NCBI RefSeq assembly: GCF_900100605.1
Contig: NZ_FNCN01000011.1
Span: 62,001 to 126,000, forward strand
Length of the DNA: 64,000 nucleotides
Direction of reading: 5' to 3'
Source of the DNA: Sinosporangium album
GTDB taxonomy: Bacteria > Actinomycetota > Actinomycetes > Streptosporangiales > Streptosporangiaceae
The position numbers were made by a program, and so were the translations under genes. Positions 30,340 through 41,132 of this stretch are shown here, one piece after another (the stretch's first letter is position 1; every line of letters starts with the position of its first letter). Below the pieces are notes generated by a model. The model did no database searches. It was not told the DNA's origin and worked only from the letters and a program-made list of their open reading frames with translations.

Positions 30340-31099
30340 GGATCACCCCGCCTGCGCGGGGAGAACCGGGAATCGGGAGCGGCGGCGAGTGCCGCCGCCG
30401 GGTCACCTCCGCCTGCGCGGGGAGAACGGGCAAAGGATCACGCTCGCTCACCAGCACGGAGGACCACCCCCCGCCTGCGCGGGGAAAACTGGGCCCGAGT
30501 ACGCAAGCCGAGCGGCATCATCGGACCACCCCCGCCTACGCGGGGAGAACGAACCGCTGGGAGACCGCCGTCTCCCAAAGCGCGGACCACCCCCGCCTGC
30601 GCGGGGAGAACGTCGACGAGCTCGCCCTCATCCCCGAGGCGTTCGGACCACCCCCGCCTGCGCGGGGAGAACTCGATCCCGAGATCCGCGAGATCTACGC
30701 ACTGAGGACCACCCCCGCCTGCGCGGGGAGAACGCCAGCGAGGACGGCAGCATTCTGCTGTACATCGGACCACCCCCGCCTGCGCGGGGAGAACGTCCAC
30801 CTCAAGAGGATCTCCGTCAAGAAGTTCGGACCACCCCCGCCTGCGCGGGGAGAACGCAGTCCAACACGTTCACCGCTGGATCACCGGCGGACCACCCCCG
30901 CCTGCGCGGGGAGAACTCGCGCGCTGTGTGGCTCGCCTCGATCAACGCCGGACCACCCCCGCCTGCGCGGGGAGAACGACTTTACATAACACCTACCGGC
31001 TTTACCACCCGGACCACCCCCGCCTGCGCGGGGAGAACCTGCCAAAGTCCAGCGGGGAGTCGTGCCTCATCGGACCACCCCCGCCTGCGCGGGGAGAAC
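30340..31099 (-). CRISPR. CRISPR array 1, type I-E, 13 repeats/12 spacers, leader on the right
   Basis: Thirteen copies of a 28-base repeat (plus-strand form GGACCACCCCCGCC...GGGGAGAAC) with 32-33-base spacers and an exact 61-base period from 30523 on. Repeats 1-4 carry substitutions or one-base indels, so the old end is on the left and the leader, with new spacers, on the right at 31100. Transcription is therefore on the minus strand. The stem is CCCCGC/GCGGGG with a GCAG loop, typical of Cas6e substrates. No cas gene is attached apart from a duplicated cas3 5-prime end. Confidence 0.97.
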
Positions 31100-31397
31100 A
31101 CTTGCTGACCTGGGCTTAAAGGGGGGCGTTGCTGATTTGTGACCTTGAGGGCTGGGGTGGTGGATGGCTTGGCATGGGGAGAGCTTACGCGCTCGTGCGA
31201 TTTTGTCGGTGGTGTGTGGTGCAGTTGCCTCGAAGGCCGAGTCGCGATGTGTGGAGCCGAGCCTATGCCTGTAGAGAATCTTGGTGGAGAGTCTCTGTGG
31301 TCGGTTGACGCGCGTTTGTGGGGGAAGCGCGACAAGCTGCCGGGCCTATCCGGTGGTCTGTCATCTCATCGACACCGCGGCGATTGCCGGGGCGCTC
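31100..31397. repeat. Duplicate of the array-2 leader plus the first 150 bases of cas3
   Basis: These 298 bases repeat 38103-38402 with a constant offset of 7003, three substitutions near the array and a 2-base deletion after CTGCCGGG. The copied cas3 start (ATG at 31247) runs about 30 codons and then frameshifts and leaves homology at 31397, so it is a dead cas3 fragment. The leader half includes the repeat-proximal block ACTTGCTGACCTGGG, which is shared by the arrays. Confidence 0.93.
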
Positions 31398-31934: not shown

Positions 31935-32492
31935 TTAGCGAGCGCGGGGCAGGGCCCCGACTTCGGTCGAGTTGACGATCGTCTCCCGTATCGCTGCGGC
32001 GGTCGCTTCGGCTGGCTGCTGCCCGTCGAGACACAGATCGGCGGTGGCGGCGGCGACTTCGACGTGCCGCTCGTAGCCGCTTCGGCCGCGCTCTAGGTAA
32101 CCACGGATACTCGCTTCGACGTCGGCGCCTTCGGCGAGTTTGCGCAACAGCTTGCGGGCCAGGCCGATGTCCCACGGGACGTCCATCCACACCGCCAGCC
32201 CGGCGCGCGAGCGCACCTCCGGCAACGTGAGTGCGAAGATCCCTTCGACGACCACCAAAGGAGCGCCCCCGGCGGTGTGCCGGTCGATCTCGCCGAGCAC
32301 CGCAGCGACGTCCATGGTGTCCGGATCGCTGAAGTCCACTCCGGCGCCAGGCATGGCGGGCGGATGGTAGTGGGTGTCCATCGCGATAACCGGTGCCTCC
32401 AAGTCGGCCCCAACGCGTGTGGCGACCGTCGACTTCCCCGACCCGGGGATGCCAGCGATCGCCACGATGAGACTGTCTTCGGCAGCAGCCAC
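31935..32492 (-). CDS. Small P-loop kinase (uridine kinase-like)
   Basis: A 185-residue P-loop kinase with Walker A GIPGSGKST (14-22), a Walker B-like VVVEGIFAL, and a lid region with LLRKLAEGADVEASIRGYLERG, the look of uridine kinase/phosphoribulokinase-like enzymes. It transfers phosphate to a small hydroxyl substrate. The start is GTG at 32492 with AGGAGG 7 bases upstream. It is last in the operon after the sugar phosphate cyclase, so a cyclitol hydroxyl (as with valiolone 7-kinases) is a plausible target. That is inference; a nucleoside is the alternative. Confidence 0.75.
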   Translation of the reverse strand: MAAAEDSLIVAIAGIPGSGKSTVATRVGADLEAPVIAMDTHYHPPAMPGAGVDFSDPDTMDVAAVLGEIDRHTAGGAPLVVVEGIFALTLPEVRSRAGLAVWMDVPWDIGLARKLLRKLAEGADVEASIRGYLERGRSGYERHVEVAAATADLCLDGQQPAEATAAAIRETIVNSTEVGALPRAR

Positions 32493-32567
32493 TCCTGCCC
32501 CTCCTAGCCGGCCATTCCGAAGGGCTACCATCTCACAGGCCGGAGGGGGCGTTCGGCAAGCTCCGGG

Positions 32568-33815
32568 TCAGCGCGTGTACATGTCCTGACCGTCGCAGCC
32601 GGAGCGCGTCTCACACAGAGCGGAGTGAGCCCCTATCGCCGAGCGCAGCAGGCTGAGGCTGACGTCGGGAACGTAGCCGCAGCCGCCGATACCGCGCGGC
32701 AGCGGCGCCCACAGGCCACCACCGCCGCGCTTGGCCAGCATCGCCTGCTGGGCCCGGACCAGCATGTCCACGTCGGTGATCGCCGGGTGGTGGATCGCCA
32801 GCCCGAGCTTCTGGCACACGTCCAGGATACGATCGCGCTCGGCCGAGGTGAGCCAGCCGAGCAGAGCGGCCAGGGTGGCGCTGAACGCTATCTCCACCGA
32901 CACGGCATGGCCGTGCCGCAGCCCGGCCGCCAGCTCGAACCCAGGCGACCAGGTGTGGCCGTAGGCATGTGGCCGATCCTGGAACACCTCGAACAGATTG
33001 GGGCCCTCGTGCCGCAGGTAGGAGCGCAGCGTCCGGAACACGATCGCATCATCGACGCTGCCGGGGCGGGCAAGGCGGGCGGCGACAAGATCGCCGCCGT
33101 GGGAGTCCAGAAGGTCGAACAGCTCGAAGTCGTCGACGATCGCCATCTTCAGCACTTCGGCCAGGCCGTGCCGGAAGTCCGGCTCTGCGAGGGTGGCGAA
33201 CAGCGACCGGTCCACCAGGGTGAGCACCGGGGGGTGGTAGGTGCCCAGGAAGTTCTTGTGGGTGCCGACGTTGACGCAGGTGCGCGGGGAGGGGCCGGCG
33301 TCGATCGCGGCGACCAGGCTGGTGGCCACCATGACGTATGGGGTACGACGGTGCAGCAGCGAGCACGCCAGCCCCGCCGTGTCGGTCAGGACGCCTCCAC
33401 CGACGACCAGGACCGGCTCGCTGCGGTTCACCTCCAGAGATCCGAGGAAGGCGGCGATGCGCTGCACCATGCCAAAGGTCTTGTCCGCTTCACGCGCCCG
33501 GCACGTCATCACGTGCAGGGCGATGCCGTGGCCCGCGAAGTATGCGGTGATGCGCTGGCCGTGCAGCCGGTGAACCTCCTCGTCGATCACTGCCGTACAG
33601 CGGCCGAGAGAACTGTAGATGTCGGCGAGGGCGCTGCACTCAGGGTCGAACACCTGCCAGGCGAGCTGGACGTCGCTACGGACCCGCAGATGGGATTCAA
33701 CGCTGATCCGCCCGCGCGCTGGGTCGGTGTCAATGTGGCCGGTTCCGTCGTAGTAGTTGCACGTGCGGAAGCGTTCGCGGTCGCCGGCCTGCGGGCGCTC
33801 GATCTGCACCGTCAC
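32568..33815 (-). CDS. Sugar phosphate cyclase, 2-epi-5-epi-valiolone synthase-like
   Basis: A 415-residue member of the dehydroquinate-synthase superfamily. The NAD-binding block is GGGVLTDTAGLACSL (139 on), followed by RTPYVMVATSLVAAIDAG, the T-S/T-L-x-x-x-I-D-A-G pattern of EEVS-type cyclases of C7-cyclitol pathways. The Zn ligands are in place: E220 (LAEVLK), H287 (GHTWSP) and H303 (HGHAVS). It should cyclise a sugar phosphate such as sedoheptulose 7-phosphate to a cyclitol. True AroB has different residues around the lysines of the active site. ATGA overlap with the flavoprotein gene before it shows co-translation. Confidence 0.82.
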   Translation of the reverse strand: MTVQIERPQAGDRERFRTCNYYDGTGHIDTDPARGRISVESHLRVRSDVQLAWQVFDPECSALADIYSSLGRCTAVIDEEVHRLHGQRITAYFAGHGIALHVMTCRAREADKTFGMVQRIAAFLGSLEVNRSEPVLVVGGGVLTDTAGLACSLLHRRTPYVMVATSLVAAIDAGPSPRTCVNVGTHKNFLGTYHPPVLTLVDRSLFATLAEPDFRHGLAEVLKMAIVDDFELFDLLDSHGGDLVAARLARPGSVDDAIVFRTLRSYLRHEGPNLFEVFQDRPHAYGHTWSPGFELAAGLRHGHAVSVEIAFSATLAALLGWLTSAERDRILDVCQKLGLAIHHPAITDVDMLVRAQQAMLAKRGGGGLWAPLPRGIGGCGYVPDVSLSLLRSAIGAHSALCETRSGCDGQDMYTR

Positions 33816-34396
33816 TCGGGGTGTCCCTTCTCGTCAAGGTCGTCGATGTAGTGGCGAAGCAGCGCGGCGACGACGTCCGGCCATGCGCACGCCACACCGG
33901 CCGGATTGCCGCCGCCCTGGCGGTTGACGCCGTCTGTGAGGCTGGGGTTAGGGGCCGGTTCCAGGACGCGGTGCTGGCGCGCAGCCAGGACCGCGACGTG
34001 CTGCTGCACCACCGGGTTGGACCACATGGCGCGGTTGGTGGCCGGCGCGAACCACACCGGTGCGGGGTAGGCGAGGATGCACGCGGTGAGCAGGGTGTCG
34101 GCGAGGCCGAGTGCCGCTTTGGCCAGGGTGTTGGCCGTCGCCGGGCACACGATGAACTCATCGGCGGAACGGGCCAGCTCGACGTGCAGGGGTGACTGTC
34201 CGGAGTGCCAGTCGGCGTCGCCGGTGACGGGCCCGGGAAAGCCGGTCAGGAACGGGACCGCGGCGGGGGTGGCGACGACGATGACCTGCGGGGCGATGTG
34301 CTCGCGCAGCAGCTCGACCAGCCCGTGCACGCCGGTCGCGGAGGAGGAGCCACAGACGCCGAGCAGGACCCGGCGGCGCGGAAGCCGGTCGTTCAC
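33812..34396 (-). CDS. Flavoprotein of the HFCD family (cysteine decarboxylase-like)
   Basis: A 194-residue FMN protein of the homo-oligomeric flavin-containing Cys decarboxylase family (EpiD, MrsD, TvaF, and the CoaC half of Dfp). The catalytic His is H71 in HVELARSADE, the FMN/substrate motif P-A-S-A-N-T appears as CPATANTLAK (84 on), and the P-A-M-N motif as PATNRAMW (118-125). EpiD-like members oxidatively decarboxylate a peptide C-terminal Cys to an enethiol. GTG start inside the nucleotidyltransferase stop (GTGA). A peptide ending in Cys is encoded at the head of the operon, which favours the peptide role over phosphopantothenoylcysteine decarboxylation. Confidence 0.85.
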   Translation of the reverse strand: MNDRLPRRRVLLGVCGSSSATGVHGLVELLREHIAPQVIVVATPAAVPFLTGFPGPVTGDADWHSGQSPLHVELARSADEFIVCPATANTLAKAALGLADTLLTACILAYPAPVWFAPATNRAMWSNPVVQQHVAVLAARQHRVLEPAPNPSLTDGVNRQGGGNPAGVACAWPDVVAALLRHYIDDLDEKGHPE

Positions 34397-35298
34397 CGGA
34401 CCGGTTGCAGCCGCAGCGGCAGCGGCGCGGTCATGGCCAGATCGGCGATCGGGCCCGGCACTGCGAGGTTCCGCATCCGCTCGTGGAACACCGACCGCCA
34501 CCAGAATTCCCGGTGGTCGAGGGTGAGAATGTCGACTTCGGCGGCGGCGAGCTCCTGGTAGACACCGAGGACCTGGCGGCGGTCGGTGACGTCGCATGAC
34601 GCTGCGGCGTCAAGGCAGCGCCGCAGCGTGCGGTGCTGCGGCAGCGCTGTGAGGTAGGTGTCGGCGAGCGCCCATTTGCGGGGGGCGGGCAGCCGTCCGG
34701 CGGCCAGGTGGCACAGATCCACCAAATACTTGATCATGTCGGTGGTGAGCAGGCGCCACGAATGCGGGTCCTGCCGCAGGTACCCCTGGAAGGCGGAACG
34801 CCAGTAGGTGGAGGCGTAGCGGCTCACCCACTCGCTCGCCAGCTGCGGAGTGAACGGCTCGACGATTCGTTCCCGTAGGACCCGCTGGTGCAGGGTGATG
34901 AAGTCCTCGTGCTCCCACATCACGTGCATGGTGTGGTAGTTCTCCAGGTCGTCCAGGTAGCCGCGGTCAAAGGAAGGGGCGGCTTGGACGAATTCAGTGA
35001 GCACCTGCAAAGACAAGATCTTGAGGTTGAGGATGCCGTCTGCGGTCAGCGTGTTGTAGACCGAGAACGGCACCAGGGTGTCGTCGCGGCCTTCCGACAG
35101 CAGCTCGATGCCCAGCCCGGTGGGGATGATGTTGTCCAGGCAGTAGCTGTCCGACAGCGGAGTCTCGGGTTCGACGAACACCCAGACGTCGACGTCGGAG
35201 TAGCGGTCTTCGACGCCCAGTCGGTGGGAGCCGCACAGGCTCAGGCCGACCACGTGCTGGGTGCCGGACAGTCGCTCAAAGATCTCGGTGTTCTTCAC
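34393..35298 (-). CDS. MNT-type nucleotidyltransferase domain protein
   Basis: A 301-residue protein whose N-terminal domain has the minimal nucleotidyltransferase motif: LCGSHRLGVEDRYSDVDVWV with G23-S24 and the metal-binding D35-x-D37. The rest is helical (HVMWEHEDFITLHQRVLRER; WRLLTTDMIKYLVDLCHLAAG) as in kanamycin nucleotidyltransferase and HEPN-like partners. It should transfer a nucleotide onto a small molecule, cyclitol phosphate, peptide or protein. GTG start after a hairpin downstream of the peptide gene. Antitoxin-type MNT proteins are much shorter. Confidence 0.78.
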   Translation of the reverse strand: MKNTEIFERLSGTQHVVGLSLCGSHRLGVEDRYSDVDVWVFVEPETPLSDSYCLDNIIPTGLGIELLSEGRDDTLVPFSVYNTLTADGILNLKILSLQVLTEFVQAAPSFDRGYLDDLENYHTMHVMWEHEDFITLHQRVLRERIVEPFTPQLASEWVSRYASTYWRSAFQGYLRQDPHSWRLLTTDMIKYLVDLCHLAAGRLPAPRKWALADTYLTALPQHRTLRRCLDAAASCDVTDRRQVLGVYQELAAAEVDILTLDHREFWWRSVFHERMRNLAVPGPIADLAMTAPLPLRLQPVR

Positions 35299-35323
35299 GT
35301 CCTAGTCCTCCCGGGGGCTGTAA

Positions 35324-35356
35324 GGGCCGGCCCGCGGACGTCTAGCGGGCCGGCCC
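35324..35356 (-). terminator. 12-bp stem-loop between the peptide gene and the enzyme genes, probable attenuator
   Basis: GGGCCGGCCCGC pairs perfectly with its complement across a 9-base loop. It lies 12 bases past the peptide stop and 25 bases before the nucleotidyltransferase start. Partial termination here would give far more peptide mRNA than enzyme mRNA, the usual arrangement for precursor-peptide genes. Confidence 0.7.
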
Positions 35357-35368
35357 AGTGGGGCGGAA

Positions 35369-35464
35369 CTAGCAGACGCGACCGGTGGTGGTCGGCATCG
35401 CCGCAGCGGTGCCGGTCACGCGGGCCAGGGAAGCCACCAGGGACTCGCGGGTCGTCTTCGCCAT
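35369..35464 (-). CDS. Short peptide ending in Cys, candidate RiPP precursor (31 residues)
   Basis: A 31-codon ORF with a near-perfect ribosome site (AAAGGAG, 8 bases before ATG). It begins MAKTTRESLVASLARVTG, a helical leader-like half. The last nine residues are M23-P24-T25-T26-T27-G28-R29-V30-C31, i.e. a Thr-rich core closing on a single C-terminal Cys. A Cys at the very end is what EpiD/TvaF-type decarboxylases need, and such a flavoprotein is encoded two genes downstream. No dehydratase or cyclase of known lanthipeptide classes is in the cluster, so the product class is open. Confidence 0.72.
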   Translation of the reverse strand: MAKTTRESLVASLARVTGTAAAMPTTTGRVC

Positions 35465-35479
35465 CACGTCACTCCTTTG

Positions 35480-35770
35480 CTCGTGCCCTGCCGGGCAACG
35501 TTTCGGGTCGGCACGCACGCGCCGCCCCCTTGTGGTTGTCGTGACCGCTGCTTCCGGGACTGCGATCCCCCTGCTGCGGTCGCAACTTGTCACACGATGA
35601 CTCCTGCACCGGCACCTTCGGTAGAGGTCGGCGCGGTGAGGCAGGTGCGGAACGGCGCCGCTTTGGTGTGGTTGGTGCGCTCAGGGGCGTCTGGGCGCGG
35701 GACCCGCTAAATTCGAAGATCTAGCTCGCCTGTGATCGGACCGTCACCTCCTGTCCGGAAGGGCCTCGCC
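35480..35770. promoter_or_regulatory. Divergent promoter region of the peptide operon and its HTH regulator
   Basis: About 290 bases between the peptide gene (-) and the regulator gene (+). I could not place -35/-10 boxes with confidence. A 38-codon frame on the plus strand (35597-35710) has no ribosome site and is not called. Confidence 0.4.
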
Positions 35771-37055
35771 ATGGCACCCCCCGCGAACGAACGGCTAGCG
35801 CGAAACGAGAACCTTCAGCTGCTGATGGAGAGGGCCGGATGGCGCCCGGAGACCCTCGCCCGGAAAGTCAACCTCGTACTGGCTGGAACGCGTGAGAAAC
35901 GCCGCGTGCATGAGAAGACGCCGTACCGATGGCTGAACCGGGGCGAGGTGCCGCACGCGCCGGTGCCGGACGTGGTCGCCTACCTGCTGTCACGGGCGAT
36001 CGGCGAACCCGTCGCCTTCGACCAGGTGTGGCCGCCCGGCACCCGTCCCTGCGCGACGTGGGCTTGGGCCGACGACGGCCGCGACATACCGTGGGATCAC
36101 CAAGGACTGCTGCAACTCCTGGGAGAGTGGTCGCACACCATGCTGACCCGACGCAGGTGCCTCGTGCTCGGCGGGGCCGCCCTCACCGGAGCCGCCTGGC
36201 AATGGCTGGACGCGCCCGCCCCGATCCCCGCGCTGCGCGGTGAAGGCGACCAGATCACTCCCGAGACGCTGTCGCTGATCGATACCATCGTGGCCGGCGC
36301 CCAGAGCCTGGACGAAAAGCACGGCAGCGGCGCCGCCGATTTCGTCGCAAGCCAGTTCAACGCCGTGGCCCGGCTGCTGCGCCGCAGTAGCTACGACGCC
36401 AAGACCGGGCAGCGGCTGTGCACCGCCCTCGGCCAGCTCGCCCAGACCTCCGGCTGGATGGCGCACGAGGCGGCTCGCGACGGACAGGCCCAGCGCTGGT
36501 TTCTGACCGGGCTGCGCGCCGCTCACTCGGCCGGTGACCCCGCGCTGGCCGCGGGCATCATCGCGTTGATGAGCAATCAGGCCACCACGATCGGCAAATC
36601 CGCTGAGGCGATCCAGCTGGCCGCAGCCGCGCAGGAAGCGGCCCGTGGCTGCTCGCGTAGCGTGCGGGCGATTGTCAGTGCCCGCAGCTGCCTGGCCTAC
36701 GCTGACGTCGGCGACTCCGCTGGCTTCCATCGATCCCGTGACGGCGCCATGGAGCTCATCACCAGGGCGGCCGAAGAGGGCGAGCAGCCGCCGGGGTGGG
36801 CGAGCCATGTCACACCGAGCGAACCAGCGGTCGGCGCTGCGGCACGGCATCTGGCTCAGCCTCGCCCACACCCGCGCCGGCGACCTGGACGAGGCCGTCG
36901 CAGCGGGCCGATCCGCGCTGCGGCGGCTGCTGTCGGTGACGTCGGCGCAGTGCGTGGCCCTACTCGGCGACCTCCGCGACGACCTGGTGCCGCACGCGCC
37001 GCGCACCACCGCAGTCCGCGACCTGGTGCACGACATCGAACGGCACCTTGCCTGA
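35771..37055 (+). pseudogene. HTH regulator with TPR-like C-terminal domain, frameshifted
   Basis: The N-terminus reads LARNENLQLLMERAGWRPET followed by ARKVNLVLAGT and ends its DNA-binding part with KTPYRWLNRGEVP, the atypical HTH of Streptomyces cluster-linked regulators; a helical repeat domain (residues about 150-340) follows. Near 36800-36830 the sense frame moves by one base. The natural C-terminus (HGIWLSLAHTRAGDLDEAVA through RDLVHDIERHLA) is read in the next frame to a stop at 37055, while the first frame runs on into an Arg/Pro-rich tail. This is either a real inactivating mutation or a sequencing error. It is divergent from the peptide/cyclitol operon and most likely its regulator. 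Confidence 0.75.
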
Positions 37056-37220
37056 AGCTACTTCAACCTCCAGTCCAGCGACTTGCCAGCGCCTAGGCAG
37101 AGGGGGCGGGCAGCAGGTCACCCCGGTCGTTGCGTCGCTTCACGCCCTCAGATCAGGCGTCGAAGTCGTACTGGAACACATAAGAACATCTCGCCCAAAG
37201 CACTCACGATCCCGTTGGCC

Positions 37221-38102
37221 GGGCCACCCCCGCCTGCGCGGGGAGAACCTAGGCGCGCGGCGATTGCCGCCTTCCCAGGTCGGACCACCCCCGCCTGCGC
37301 GGGGAGAACGACGACGAGCTCGGCGAGGCGCAGGGCGAGGGCGGACCACCCCCGCCTGCGCGGGGAGAACGAGGCACCGGCACCACCCGGTGGGACATCA
37401 AACGGACCACCCCCGCCTGCGCGGGGAGAACGAGGGCTGGGGCGACGTGGGTGTAATGAGGGACGGACCACCCCCGCCTGCGCGGGGAGAACGAGGGCTG
37501 GGGCGACGTGGGTGTAATGAGGGACGGACCACCCCCGCCTGCGCGGGGAGAACGACGTGCAGAAAATCCAAGACGTCGGCAAAGTCGGACCACCCCCGCC
37601 TGCGCGGGGAGAACGAGGGCTGGGGCGACGTGGGTGTAATGAGGGACGGACCACCCCCGCCTGCGCGGGGAGAACGACGTGCAGAAAATCCAAGACGTCG
37701 GCAAAGTCGGACCACCCCCGCCTGCGCGGGGAGAACAGGTGTTGGCGTGGTGCTGGGCTGCGGCGCGGCGGACCACCCCCGCCTGCGCGGGGAGAACGCC
37801 AGCCGCCAGGACCGGCCATCGCCGTCATCCGGACCACCCCCGCCTGCGCGGGGAGAACCATCTGGTCGTACGCCGCTCGGACGCCGGGCTCGGACCACCC
37901 CCGCCTGCGCGGGGAGAACGCCGAGGTGACGCGCAGCTTCACGGTGGGAGCCGGACCACCCCCGCCTGCGCGGGGAGAACTGCCCACGCCTGACGAGGCT
38001 GACGAGCTGCGACGGACCACCCCCGCCTGCGCGGGGAGAACGCGTGCATGTTGTCCGGCAGAAGCGCCAAGGTCGGACCACCCCCGCCTGCGCGGGGAGA
38101 AC
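37221..38102 (-). CRISPR. CRISPR array 2, type I-E, 15 repeats/14 spacers, leader on the right
   Basis: Fifteen 28-base repeats of the same sequence as array 1, with an exact 61-base period throughout. The leftmost repeat has GGGCC in place of GGACC, marking the old end. The leader starts at 38103, shared in divergent orientation with cas3. One spacer (starting GAGGGCTGGGGCGACG) occurs three times (37432, 37493, 37615) and another (GACGTGCAGAAAATCC) twice (37554, 37676), in the order A-A-B-A-B, which shows repeat-mediated duplication inside the array. Confidence 0.98.
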
Positions 38103-38249
38103 ACTTGCTGACCTGGGCTTAAAGGGGGGCGTTGCTGATTTGTGACCTTGGGGGCTGGGGCGGTGGCTGGCTTGGCATGGGGAGAGCTTACGCGCTCGTG
38201 CGATTTTGTCGGTGGTGTGTGGTGCAGTTGCCTCGAAGGCCGAGTCGCG
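38103..38249. promoter_or_regulatory. Leader of array 2 and promoter region of cas3
   Basis: About 147 bases between the first repeat of array 2 (read leftwards) and the cas3 start (read rightwards). The repeat-proximal block, read towards the array, is GCCCAGGTCAGCAAGT; the same block stands before the first repeat of array 3 (GCCCCAGGTCAGTAAGT). This fixes array orientation and marks a probable Cas1-Cas2 docking element. The whole leader is duplicated beside array 1. Confidence 0.8.
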
Positions 38250-41132
38250 ATGTGTGGAGCCGAGCCTATGCCTGTAGAGAATCTTGGTGGAGAGTCTCTG
38301 TGGTCGGTTGACGCGCGTTTGTGGGGGAAGCGCGACAAGCTGCCGGGGCCTTATCCGGTGGTCTGCCATCTCATCGACACGGCGGCGATTGCCGGGGCGC
38401 TCTGGGACGCGTGGGCCGTCGGGCTGAACGTCCTGTCTGTGGATGTGCTCGGTGAGCATGTTGGTGCCCGCATGAGAAATTTCGTGTGCTTCTGGGCGGG
38501 CCTGCACGATATAGGCAAGGTATCGCCGTCATTCCAGGCGCTGGTTGGAGACTGCTATCAGACGCTGCTCGCGGAGGCGTCGGAGTACGGCGAGGACGAC
38601 GCGGTGGTCGGCTTGCGTCATAACGAGGTGACGCAGTGGGTCCTGGTCGAGATCTTCAAGGCGCTGGGTTACCCCGCTGCCGACCGTGCGCGCCGGGACG
38701 TTGGGCATCAGATCGCCCAGTTGCTCGGAGGGCATCACGGGCAGTTCTGCCGTGCGATGAGGCGCCAGGAGTTGAGCGATCCCCGCTCCCGTCCCGGCAT
38801 CGGCGAGGGTGTTTGGGAGGAGCAGTGCCGCGCGCACGCGGATGTGCTCCGAGAACTGACGGGCGCGGATGAGGCGCTGCGTGAGCGGTTGCCGGTGCCG
38901 GCGGCGGTTGTGGTGCTCGGCATTGTGATTGTGGCGGACTGGCTCGCGAGCCAGGAGTCGTTCATTATCGCGCGGATGCCGAAATCCGGCTGGGAGGCTT
39001 CGCCGGGCGAGCTGCGTGCCCATTGGGAAGTGGCGGTGGCCGACGCGCCGCGGGTGGTGCGGGATGCGGGGTTGGGCCGTGGCCTGTTCGAGGACCGGAC
39101 CTTCAAGGAGCTGTTCGGCTTCGACGAGCCTAATCCGCTGCAGGCCTCGGTGATGAAGGAGCTACCCGGGCTGGTCGACGGTCCGGGCCTGCTGCTGGCC
39201 ACGGCTCCGCCGGGCGAGGGTAAGACGGAGATGGCCCTGTACGCGGCGGGGGTGCTGGCGCGGGCCTGCCGGGCCAATGGGCTGGGGTTCTGCCTGCCGA
39301 CGATGGCGACGACGGACGCGATGCACAGGCGGGTTTCGCTGTTCGCCAAGCGGGCGCTGCTGGGGGACGCCGCTTTGGCCAAGGTCCACAGCATGGCCTG
39401 GTTGTCTTCGGACGCAGCCGGCGATGCGGCGGCCGACGCGTCTATCGGCGATGTCGTGATCACGGACGCGGAGGCTTCGATCGAGGCGACGCAATGGCTG
39501 CGCGCCGGTCGGCGTGGCCTGATGGCGCCGTTGAGCACGTTCACCATCGACCAGGGCCTGACCGGTGTGCTGCCTGTGAGATACAACGTCCTGCGCTTGA
39601 TGGCGATGGCGGGCAAGGTCGTGGTCATCGATGAGGCCCACTCCTATGACGCGTGGATGCACGCCCTGCTGCTGCGGTGGCTGGAATGGCTCGGAGCGTT
39701 TCGGGCGCCCGTGATCCTGTTGTCGGCCACGCTCACCGGCGACACGGCGCGGTCGCTGGTCGAGGCGTATATGCGTGGGGCCGGGCACGGGGTGCCGCGG
39801 GAGCTGCGGCCCTGCTATCCGGGGTGGCTGTTCGCCGACGCGGTCAGTGGGACCGTTCGCTCTCCCCGGGAAGTGGCCAGCGAACGGGAGCGCAGCGTGA
39901 GGTTCGAGATGGTGCCGGTACGGCGGGGCAAGGACGTCGCGCGGCCGGGGCATCGGCTCGCGGTCGTCAAGAGGCTGCTGGAGCAGGTGGTCGACAGTGA
40001 CCGTGGATGTGTCCTGGTGTGCTGCACTACAGTCGCCGAAGCCCAGCACACCTACCGTCATATCGCCGACTGGTTCCGTGAACTCAAGGAGAACGGCGGA
40101 CAGCCCCCTGAGTTGAGGCTGCTGCATTCCCGGTACCGCGCCCGCGACCGGTCCAAGATCATCGACGCGTGTGAGCGCGACTTCGGCAAGACGGGGCAGC
40201 GCCCCCGCACGGTCCTGGTCTCCACGCAGATCATCGAACAGTCCCTGGACCTGGACTTCGATCTGCTCATCACCGACCTGGCATCTATGGCGCTGCTCCT
40301 CCAGCGCTCAGGTCGATGCCAGCGCCGCCGCGACAAGCACAGCGACCTGCACCAGGCTCGCCGACCGGATTGGATCGGCGCCGAGCCCCGCGTGGTCGTG
40401 CTGGAGCCAGTGAACGAAGAGGGCGTGTTCGCGGTGCCGAAGGAGTGGGGTGAGGTCTACGACGAGTCCCTGCTGCGCCGTACGAGCAGGCTTCTGCACG
40501 AACGCGGCACCGATCCTGTCGAGGTCCCGGGCGATGTGCAGAGCCTTGTCGACGCGGTCTATGCCGAGGACTTCGCGGCGGTGGCCACGTTGAGCGACGC
40601 CGCCGCGCGAGAGATCGTCCTAGCGGATGGTGAACGTCTCGCGAGAGAGGCTGTCCAACGGCAGACCGCGAGCCTGGTCAGGATCTACTCGCCCCACGAC
40701 GGGCAGCTCCACGATCTTCACAAGCTCAGCGAGTCATGGCCCGGCGTGGACTCCGCATGGCTCACGACGCGCCTGGGGGCCGACTCCGAACGACTGGTGT
40801 GCGTCTATGAGCAGGAACCGGGCGTGTGGACGTTGGACGAGTCCGGGCAGGTGGCCGTGCCCGGTTGGAAGGGGCGGTCGCGGGTCACCCGCGACCAGGC
40901 GCGCCTGATCGCGGAGTACGTGATCCCGGCGCCTGGGCGGTACTTCGGTGAGGATGCCGAGCTGCTGGAGCTGCCGCCCGCCTGGGCGAAGAACGCCGTG
41001 CTGCGCGACTGGAAGCTGCTGCCGATGCGGCGTGCGGGCGAGCGGTGGTACGGCCGGATGCGGCCGGGCCCGGTGCGCTATGAGGCGGAGCCGGGGCTTG
41101 AGCTGGTTGCTACCCCTTACGCTCTTGATTAA
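38250..41132 (+). CDS. cas3: CRISPR-associated helicase/nuclease Cas3
   Basis: A 960-residue HD nuclease plus superfamily 2 helicase, recruited by target-bound Cascade to unwind and shred DNA. HD part: YPVVCHLIDTAA, GLHDIGKVSPSFQ (the H-D pair) and GGHHGQF. Helicase: motif I TAPPGEGKTEMAL, motif II VVIDEAHSYDAW (DEAH), motif III LLSATLTGDT, motif VI LLQRSGRCQRRR. Start ATG 38250, or ATG 38268, which has GGAG 8 bases upstream. Its last 35 bases hold the target-like site of the regulatory mini-array. It is separated from the other cas genes by 342 bases, so it can be expressed apart from Cascade. Confidence 0.97.
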   Translation: MCGAEPMPVENLGGESLWSVDARLWGKRDKLPGPYPVVCHLIDTAAIAGALWDAWAVGLNVLSVDVLGEHVGARMRNFVCFWAGLHDIGKVSPSFQALVGDCYQTLLAEASEYGEDDAVVGLRHNEVTQWVLVEIFKALGYPAADRARRDVGHQIAQLLGGHHGQFCRAMRRQELSDPRSRPGIGEGVWEEQCRAHADVLRELTGADEALRERLPVPAAVVVLGIVIVADWLASQESFIIARMPKSGWEASPGELRAHWEVAVADAPRVVRDAGLGRGLFEDRTFKELFGFDEPNPLQASVMKELPGLVDGPGLLLATAPPGEGKTEMALYAAGVLARACRANGLGFCLPTMATTDAMHRRVSLFAKRALLGDAALAKVHSMAWLSSDAAGDAAADASIGDVVITDAEASIEATQWLRAGRRGLMAPLSTFTIDQGLTGVLPVRYNVLRLMAMAGKVVVIDEAHSYDAWMHALLLRWLEWLGAFRAPVILLSATLTGDTARSLVEAYMRGAGHGVPRELRPCYPGWLFADAVSGTVRSPREVASERERSVRFEMVPVRRGKDVARPGHRLAVVKRLLEQVVDSDRGCVLVCCTTVAEAQHTYRHIADWFRELKENGGQPPELRLLHSRYRARDRSKIIDACERDFGKTGQRPRTVLVSTQIIEQSLDLDFDLLITDLASMALLLQRSGRCQRRRDKHSDLHQARRPDWIGAEPRVVVLEPVNEEGVFAVPKEWGEVYDESLLRRTSRLLHERGTDPVEVPGDVQSLVDAVYAEDFAAVATLSDAAAREIVLADGERLAREAVQRQTASLVRIYSPHDGQLHDLHKLSESWPGVDSAWLTTRLGADSERLVCVYEQEPGVWTLDESGQVAVPGWKGRSRVTRDQARLIAEYVIPAPGRYFGEDAELLELPPAWAKNAVLRDWKLLPMRRAGERWYGRMRPGPVRYEAEPGLELVATPYALD
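41092..41126 (-). promoter_or_regulatory. Protospacer-like target of the pseudo-crRNA, with AAG PAM
   Basis: On the minus strand AAG (plus-strand CTT 41124-41126) is followed by AGCGTAAGGGG (41123-41113). The pseudo-spacer at 41210-41241 begins AGCGTGAGGGG. Over 32 positions 20 match by my count. In the first 14 the only mismatches are 6 and 12, the positions that type I-E Cascade flips out and does not read. A -35-like TTGATT (41125-41130) overlaps the PAM on the plus strand, but no good -10 was found. Bound Cascade here would sit directly upstream of the cas8e operon. Confidence 0.75.

Follow-up and report, generated by a model that had tools for sequence, protein, structure and literature searches.

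We analyzed a compact gene cassette encoding a Cys-ending peptide and four enzymes in a 64,000-nucleotide stretch of Sinosporangium album DNA (contig NZ_FNCN01000011.1), which is referred to below as the window. The genes for the peptide, a nucleotidyltransferase (NT), a flavoprotein, a sugar-phosphate cyclase, and a kinase all lie on the minus strand within about 3.5 kb (Table 1), and the full set was also found at four other loci. The layout agreed with a preliminary description of this DNA, which had reported five co-directional genes at these positions. That description had placed 4-base overlaps on three genes; the overlaps number two (34393-34396 and 33812-33815), and they do join three genes. 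A hairpin after the peptide gene had also been described and was found here, with a free energy of -42.1 kcal/mol for a 73-nt stretch and a z score of -3.25, and so was the ribosome-binding site in front of a 31-residue peptide ending in Cys. For the kinase, a possible internal GTG start was seen by eye near 32492, behind AGGAGG.

Table 1. Positions and characteristics of the cassette features in the window (SD, Shine-Dalgarno sequence)
Feature	Position	Strand	Characteristics
Precursor peptide open reading frame (candidate)	35369..35464	-	31 codons from ATG; single Cys, C-terminal; end ...TTTGRVC; SD AAAGGAG
Hairpin between the peptide and NT genes	35324..35356 (about)	-	12-bp stem, without T-run
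Pol-beta-type NT	34393..35298	-	301 aa; G-S and D-x-D invariant in 5/5 cassettes
HFCD-type flavoprotein, putative peptidyl-Cys decarboxylase	33812..34396	-	194 aa; H71 and N121 invariant in 5/5 cassettes
Sugar-phosphate cyclase, DDGS-like group	32568..33815	-	415 aa; Glu/His/His metal-site residues kept
P-loop kinase, phosphoribulokinase (PRK)/uridine kinase-like	31935..32531	-	198 aa; Walker A GIPGSGKS

HFCD stands for homo-oligomeric flavin-containing Cys decarboxylase and DDGS for desmethyl-4-deoxygadusol synthase.

Recurrence of the cassette and its Cys-ending peptide

The NT, as the rarest gene of the set, was chosen as the search marker. Searches covered 200 genomes of the order, 396 of the phylum, 250 of the family, 394 of the class, and 295 of the genus of G222, together with 81 genomes from the family of G403 and the relatives of G793 (199 genomes) and G181 (99 genomes). 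These sets overlap, in several of them part of the first-look candidates per genome (e.g., 5) was scored, and an empty result in the G403 family set is uninformative; the rarity of the cassette is therefore provisional. Strong matches in the genome sets were confined to the window's own genome, G181 (same family), and G793 (same class). A plasmid collection gave two strong matches, in Streptomyces halstedii (NZ_CP109045.1) and Streptomyces microflavus (NZ_CP108576.1). A full cassette was present at all five positions. The preliminary description had suggested searching actinomycetes for this gene set with a short Cys-ending open reading frame (ORF) upstream and had named relatives lacking such a peptide as evidence against its reading; the search returned four further full cassettes, and all five full cassettes carry a Cys-ending peptide.

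Weaker NT matches in G783 (E value of 3.3e-9), G157 (2.5e-5), G119 (1.4e-4), and G612 (7.9e-4) were excluded from the five. The surroundings of the G783 match (L097) were inspected and held no cassette; by eye, this distant NT relative adjoins a Gfo/Idh-like oxidoreductase (L097 8847-9671). The loci of G157, G119, and G612 entered only the short-ORF count described below, not the cassette inspection. A flavoprotein on the SAT1 plasmid (L095) was not part of a cassette. A viral origin was rejected: the phage collection gave no match to the NT, and of 45 stretches in viral_contigs that fitted a pattern, none was confirmed.

The gene order is peptide-NT-flavoprotein-cyclase-kinase in the window and G181 and peptide-cyclase-NT-flavoprotein-kinase in S. 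halstedii, S. microflavus, and G793. Pairwise identities between loci were 37 to 62% for the NT, 31 to 53% for the flavoprotein, and 36 to 57% for the kinase. When all ORFs of at least 70 codons were compared across the five loci (the G793 contig being only 9 kb), the window, G181, and the other three loci had the four enzymes, helix-turn-helix regulators, and ABC (ATP-binding cassette) ATPases in common at 55 bits or more, and nothing else; the two Streptomyces plasmids additionally have a DNA ligase and a ScbR-type regulator in common. No lanthionine synthetase, YcaO, or other known maturase of ribosomally synthesized and posttranslationally modified peptides (RiPPs) was among the genes shared by the five loci, in line with what had been noted for the window.

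An SD-preceded short ORF of 14 to 43 codons with an ATG start lies directly ahead of the first enzyme gene in 5/5 cassettes. The peptides are MAKTTRESLVASLARVTGTAAAMPTTTGRVC in the window, MGNGSTVASTREELLSGLEQVASDTPASQDSNGAGPAAVGRPC in G181, MDDNTTVITGGRPC in S. halstedii, MFSIDEESAGAGRPC in S. microflavus, and MTSPKPRKRPVIVSGRPC in G793. Read from ATG, each contains exactly one Cys, as the last residue of the motif G-R-[P/V]-C. In the window, the peptide frame extends upstream of this ATG without a stop, and the GTG codons at 35467, 35518, and 35593 are alternative starts that also follow an SD; the longer forms would gain Cys residues, and the single Cys is thus true of the ATG start, whose SD is the best placed of these. 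The third codon position is G or C in 28 of the 31 window codons. Neither Streptomyces plasmid peptide ORF is annotated in the PLSDB gene tables, and the Pfam, NCBIfam, and PADLOC models gave no match to the peptide.

The frequency of such endings was assessed among SD-preceded ORFs of 10 to 60 codons, taken from the most upstream SD-preceded start, in 92 sequences (1,286,316 bp; eight cassette duplicates excluded and a small noncassette overlap of L089 with L097 included). Among 5,065 short ORFs, 165 ended in Cys and 5 in GR[PV]C, and these were exactly the five cassette peptides. The GC-rich subset (16 sequences, 261,671 bp) had 876 short ORFs, with 22 ending in Cys and 5 in GR[PV]C, versus a mean of 0.15 GR[PV]C endings expected from 20 order-3 Markov resamplings. 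Two further ORFs (in L047 and L075) end in GR, another residue, and C, with no cassette there. Since the codons for Gly (GGT, GGC, or GGA) and Arg (CGC, CGT, or AGG) differ between loci, the tail is conserved at the protein level; Pro is CCC in 4/4 and Cys is TGC in 5/5. Ahead of the tail stand 10 to 39 variable residues. The pattern is therefore the reverse of a conserved leader with a variable core, the tail being conserved and the N-terminal part variable. By eye, a TRE-L...L..V stretch is shared by the window and G181 peptides alone. A hairpin follows the peptide ORF in all five cassettes, with z scores from -1.43 (S. halstedii) to -4.59 and a T-run in none.

The neighborhoods of the cassettes differ. 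In G181, the neighbors are a transketolase-like gene, a luciferase-like oxidoreductase, a methyltransferase, a HAD protein (haloacid dehalogenase superfamily), and two aminoglycoside phosphotransferase (APH) genes; the transketolase-like gene comes next after the kinase and possibly supplies sedoheptulose 7-phosphate. Next to the G793 cassette, two ORFs resemble an IS21-type transposase pair by eye (L096 6211-8684), and the S. halstedii and S. microflavus cassettes are both on linear plasmids; for these reasons, the cassette may be mobile. At a distance of 5 to 8 kb, the S. halstedii cassette has genes on the same plasmid (L086 21294-24487) for an ABC transporter ATPase, a lasso-peptide B2-like protein, and a Tad2-like (Thoeris anti-defense) protein.

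In the window, a divergent regulator-like ORF (35732-37096, plus strand) adjoins the peptide gene. It may be frameshifted: by eye, its reading frame seems to change near 36645, and the expected C-terminal part is in an ORF overlapping there. Clustered regularly interspaced short palindromic repeat (CRISPR)-like arrays with a 61-bp period flank the cassette (30522-31070 and 37220-38134). Each array ends in a 275-nt stretch (31070-31344 and 38073-38347), the two copies being 99% identical at a spacing of 7,003 bp. By eye, the copy at 38073 leads into a cas3-like ORF; its counterpart leads into a short ORF that shares this start. The 7-kb unit thus has the look of an insertion or duplication within a CRISPR locus.

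Family assignment of the four enzymes

The window flavoprotein matched PF02441 (Flavoprotein), and the active-site His was aligned. The N motif of the active site reads P[AT]TANT in four members and PATATT in G793. A profile of the five members matched MrsD at 111.8 bits, 1qzu at 110.6 bits, and EpiD at 90.5 bits, and its best solved relatives were 7cfu, MrsD, 1qzu (hypothetical protein MDS018), CoaBC, AtHAL3a, and EpiD. Membership in the HFCD family, as had been proposed for the window protein, is thus certain. Because MrsD and 1qzu, a phosphopantothenoylcysteine (PPC) decarboxylase-like chain, score alike, sequence alone does not choose between their substrates. The CoaC model gave 73.3 bits, below its cut-off of 261.4, and the protein does not qualify as a PPC decarboxylase on that basis. 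In the profile, no Cys aligns with the CGD stretch of 1qzu; given the role of this stretch in PPC decarboxylases, this fits the formation of an enethiol over that of a thiol. A flavoprotein confined to coenzyme A synthesis is unlikely because of its pairing with the peptide in 5/5 cassettes.

The window cyclase matched the dehydroquinate (DHQ) synthase families PF01761 and PF24621. A genome scan with this cyclase confirmed 132 relatives, and the neighborhoods of the best 80 of them, at 42 to 55% identity, were counted. None of these 80 had an NT, flavoprotein, or kinase match (E value of 1e-3) in the available DNA, which often ends at contig ends. An O-methyltransferase and an ATP-grasp protein of the mycosporine type both stood beside the cyclase in 53 of the 57 relatives with at least 47% identity and in 3 of the 23 with lower identity. 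Among them, the Umezawaea and Saccharothrix cyclases (L006, L009, and L010; 55% identity) have O-methyltransferase and ATP-grasp neighbors, and these loci are mycosporine-type clusters in actinomycetes.

The preliminary description had proposed a 2-epi-5-epi-valiolone synthase (EEVS)-like cyclase within an enzyme set of the acarbose/validamycin type. This did not hold in a tree of 29 cyclases, which represented 18 of the 80 loci and had ValA (4p53) as its single EEVS reference. The window and G181 cyclases grouped with three actinomycete cyclases that stand beside O-methyltransferase and ATP-grasp genes (ultrafast bootstrap [UFBoot] of 95). The union of this group with cyclases from cyanobacterial mycosporine clusters had a UFBoot of 63, and a wider clade, without ValA and 5tpr, had a UFBoot of 93; all were apart from ValA. 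The EEVS/acarbose reading as first stated was rejected on the basis of this tree, and the NT and kinase are of the Pol-beta and PRK/Udk-like types, respectively. The S. halstedii, S. microflavus, and G793 cyclases formed a clade of their own (100) on the DHQ synthase side (100). Placement on the 4p53/5tpr side with kept metal ligands, as expected for a sedoheptulose 7-phosphate cyclase, was found for the window and G181 only. The gadusol paper (PMC4426668) lists the enzymes of the superfamily, and according to the ebo paper (PMC5133447), EVS (2-epi-valiolone synthase) enzymes would be mistaken for DHQ synthases by sequence. From the tree position and this resemblance, a C7 product appears likely for the window cyclase and possible for those of the other cassettes.

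The remaining two enzymes were assigned in broader terms. The window NT matched PF01909 (NTP_transf_2) weakly, at 20.9 bits against a cut-off of 21; across the cassettes, NTP_transf_2 was matched in 5/5 NTs and Polbeta in 4/5 at E values of up to 1. The Pfam, NCBIfam, and PADLOC models gave no match apart from these generic nucleotidyltransferase families, and a profile search against the Protein Data Bank gave no significant match (best E value of 0.18). A single-sequence structure prediction of the NT reached a mean predicted local distance difference test score of 39.9 and was not used. The window kinase matched PF00485 (PRK/uridine kinase), its nearest relatives being uridine kinases and phosphoribulokinases. 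An anti-phage defense system was rejected, as the PADLOC models matched 0/5 window proteins at an E value of 0.01.

Proposed pathway and rival explanations

A precursor ORF co-occurring with modifying enzymes across taxa, as expected of a RiPP, was observed in all five cassettes. We lean narrowly toward reading the set as a minimal RiPP-type pathway in which an enethiol tail is joined to an activated ring. In the proposed sequence, a short ribosomal peptide of 14 to 43 residues would present the C-terminal Gly-Arg-Pro/Val-Cys, and the flavoprotein, judging from its family and its constant pairing with the peptide, would oxidatively decarboxylate the terminal Cys to an enethiol. A C7 cyclitol or cyclohexenone would be the product of the cyclase; for the window lineage, the phylogeny suggests sedoheptulose 7-phosphate as its probable substrate. 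Gene content suggests that the kinase and NT might activate the ring by phosphoryl and nucleotidyl transfer, and that the activated ring might be joined to the peptide tail, most simply via the enethiol sulfur; this joining is the weakest step. The variable N-terminal part could be trimmed by a protease, not necessarily one encoded in the cassette. The M20-family peptidase gene at L087 11281-12477, the first annotated gene upstream of the S. microflavus peptide, is a candidate for this role.

The conservation of the cassette, the peptide with its C-terminal Cys, and the families of the enzymes were observed, and the chemistry is a proposal whose parts differ in strength. It is very probable that the peptide is an enzyme substrate. 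A flavoprotein of the C-terminal peptidyl-Cys decarboxylase family accompanies it in each cassette. Decarboxylation of the Cys is probable, and so, with slightly less assurance, is the formation of a C7 ring by the cyclase. Whether ring and peptide end up in one molecule is evenly balanced. More tentatively, and at somewhat less than an even chance, the cassettes may represent a new RiPP class with near-leaderless precursors (down to 14 residues), in which an activated C7 ring caps the GR[PV]C enethiol tail. The product of the window lineage would then be an S-joined mycosporine-like cyclohexenone, i.e., a ribosomal thio-mycosporine or a cyclitol-nucleotide peptide. The cyclohexenone of mycosporines is activated by an ATP-dependent enzyme so that an amine can attack it; here, the kinase or the NT could take this ATP-grasp role, with sulfur as the attacking atom.

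Several observations weigh against a RiPP-type pathway. The window and G181 peptides have no N-terminal similarity to those of the remaining cassettes, which is unusual for RiPPs, and the five loci have no ligase, coupling enzyme, dedicated exporter, or protease in common. The best NCBIfam match of the window flavoprotein was CoaBC (91.6 bits, below the cut-off of 219.7), while the CypD RiPP model NF033753 gave 19.9 bits against a cut-off of 215. Near the place of the CGD stretch, a Cys is present in the window (VACAW) and G181 (VGCEW) flavoproteins and in none of the other three, and PF02441 proteins are known from RiPP clusters and from clusters of other kinds (PMC7794033). Two cyclase lineages with 28% identity are represented, so the ring may differ in the other three cassettes, or these may not use sedoheptulose 7-phosphate. 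Finally, a hairpin 3' of a short Cys-containing ORF at 5/5 loci is also what a regulatory leader peptide would look like. Because of this hairpin, the serious main rival is an attenuator or ribosome-arrest element of a small-molecule operon, whose flavoprotein, like PPC decarboxylase, would have a small cysteine compound as its substrate. The near absence of a leader in the 14- to 18-residue peptides and the CoaBC match of the flavoprotein agree with it, and cysteine leader peptides without clear terminators have been predicted ahead of the cys operons of mycobacteria and of certain other actinobacteria (PMC1262725). However, those predicted peptides have runs of Cys codons (PMC1262725), whereas each of the five here has one, and none of the five hairpins has a T-run. 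In addition, the conserved unit is a four-residue protein motif with a C-terminal Cys, as a C-terminal-Cys decarboxylase requires, and the same type of ORF is found in both gene orders, whether the NT or the cyclase comes next. We therefore regard a leader peptide as unlikely.

The peptide might instead be a disposable scaffold, on which the Cys (or Arg-Pro-Cys) is modified and then released by proteolysis as a small ring-bearing thiol or enethiol metabolite or cofactor, like 3-thiaglutamate on TglA; peptide scaffolds have a precedent (PMC9016710). The four tail residues alone are common to all peptides, as this would suggest, and the M20 peptidase gene beside the S. microflavus peptide would suit it. 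However, no protease is conserved among the genes common to the loci, and no match to a peptide aminoacyl-tRNA ligase (PEARL)-type enzyme was found among the five window proteins. A scaffold is rather unlikely on balance, and it cannot be told apart from the RiPP-type pathway in the present data. Far less probable is closure of the enethiol on a dehydrated Ser/Thr of the same peptide to give an aminovinylcysteine, with dehydratases supplied by other parts of the genome. The window (TGRVC) and G793 (SGRPC) peptides have a Thr or Ser four residues ahead of the Cys, both of these genomes hold HopA1-type lyase genes (PF17914), and APH-family genes lie about 3 to 9 kb from the cassette in G181 and S. 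halstedii. However, the HopA1 genes are on contigs other than that of the cassette, and none was found in G181 or the two plasmid records (the Streptomyces chromosomes were outside the search). Moreover, the nearest Ser/Thr in the G181 peptide is 12 residues before the Cys, and such a closure would leave the cyclase, NT, and kinase without a role. A class V lanthipeptide was likewise rejected, as the HopA1-type lyase occurs in 2/5 genomes or records and is never linked to the cassette.

Novelty and relation to known systems

Among the matches listed in a search of titles and abstract beginnings in the open-access literature, which leaves subscription papers mostly outside its scope, no description of an HFCD-type peptide pathway joined to a sugar-phosphate cyclase was found. 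The recurrence of this pairing of peptide and enzymes in four relatives suggests a so far undescribed type of modified, gene-encoded peptide. If the RiPP-type pathway is true, ribosomal peptide modification and cyclitol/mycosporine cyclase chemistry would be joined in one five-gene unit, and HFCD-type enzymes would be active outside lanthionine-type clusters, in a setting that genome mining based on known maturases would overlook. The precursor peptides, although longer than those of microcin C and the biarylitides, are very short and seem to be recognized by four C-terminal residues. Thus, the pathway would be easy to rebuild and reprogram.

Compared with mycosporine-like amino acid clusters (DDGS, O-methyltransferase, and ATP-grasp protein), the window and G181 cyclases group with the same lineage. 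However, no O-methyltransferase or ATP-grasp homologue was found in 5/5 cassette loci (L013 queries, E value of 1e-3), and the cassette has a peptide and a flavoprotein. The C7-cyclitol pathways of acarbose and validamycin likewise have a cyclase, a kinase, and a nucleotidyltransferase as a set. In contrast, the cassette cyclase is off the branch of ValA, the one EEVS reference, and its NT and kinase belong to the types given above.

Microcin C resembles the cassette in its very short precursor (7 residues), whose C terminus is modified by nucleotide chemistry (PMC6495379). In the cassette, however, the substrate residue would be Cys, with a decarboxylase and a ring-forming cyclase. The ThiF-like MccB of microcin C is a further difference, as no ThiF-like protein was found among the five window proteins with Pfam. 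The 3-thiaglutamate/pearlin pathway also performs chemistry at the C-terminal Cys of a peptide (PMC9016710), whereas the cassette Cys is gene encoded and no PEARL or TglHI-type match was obtained with Pfam or NCBIfam.

The HFCD-dependent RiPPs (epidermin/mersacidin, thioviridamide, kintamdin, and class V lanthipeptides) share with the cassette a PF02441 protein with the aligned His and a PATANT-type motif, together with a Cys-ending ribosomal peptide (PMC9415263 and PMC12291118). Unlike these systems, the cassette is without a Ser/Thr dehydratase, a lyase, or a kinase-fold cyclase; its peptides are only 14 to 43 residues long, and it carries a sugar-phosphate cyclase, an NT, and a PRK-like kinase instead.

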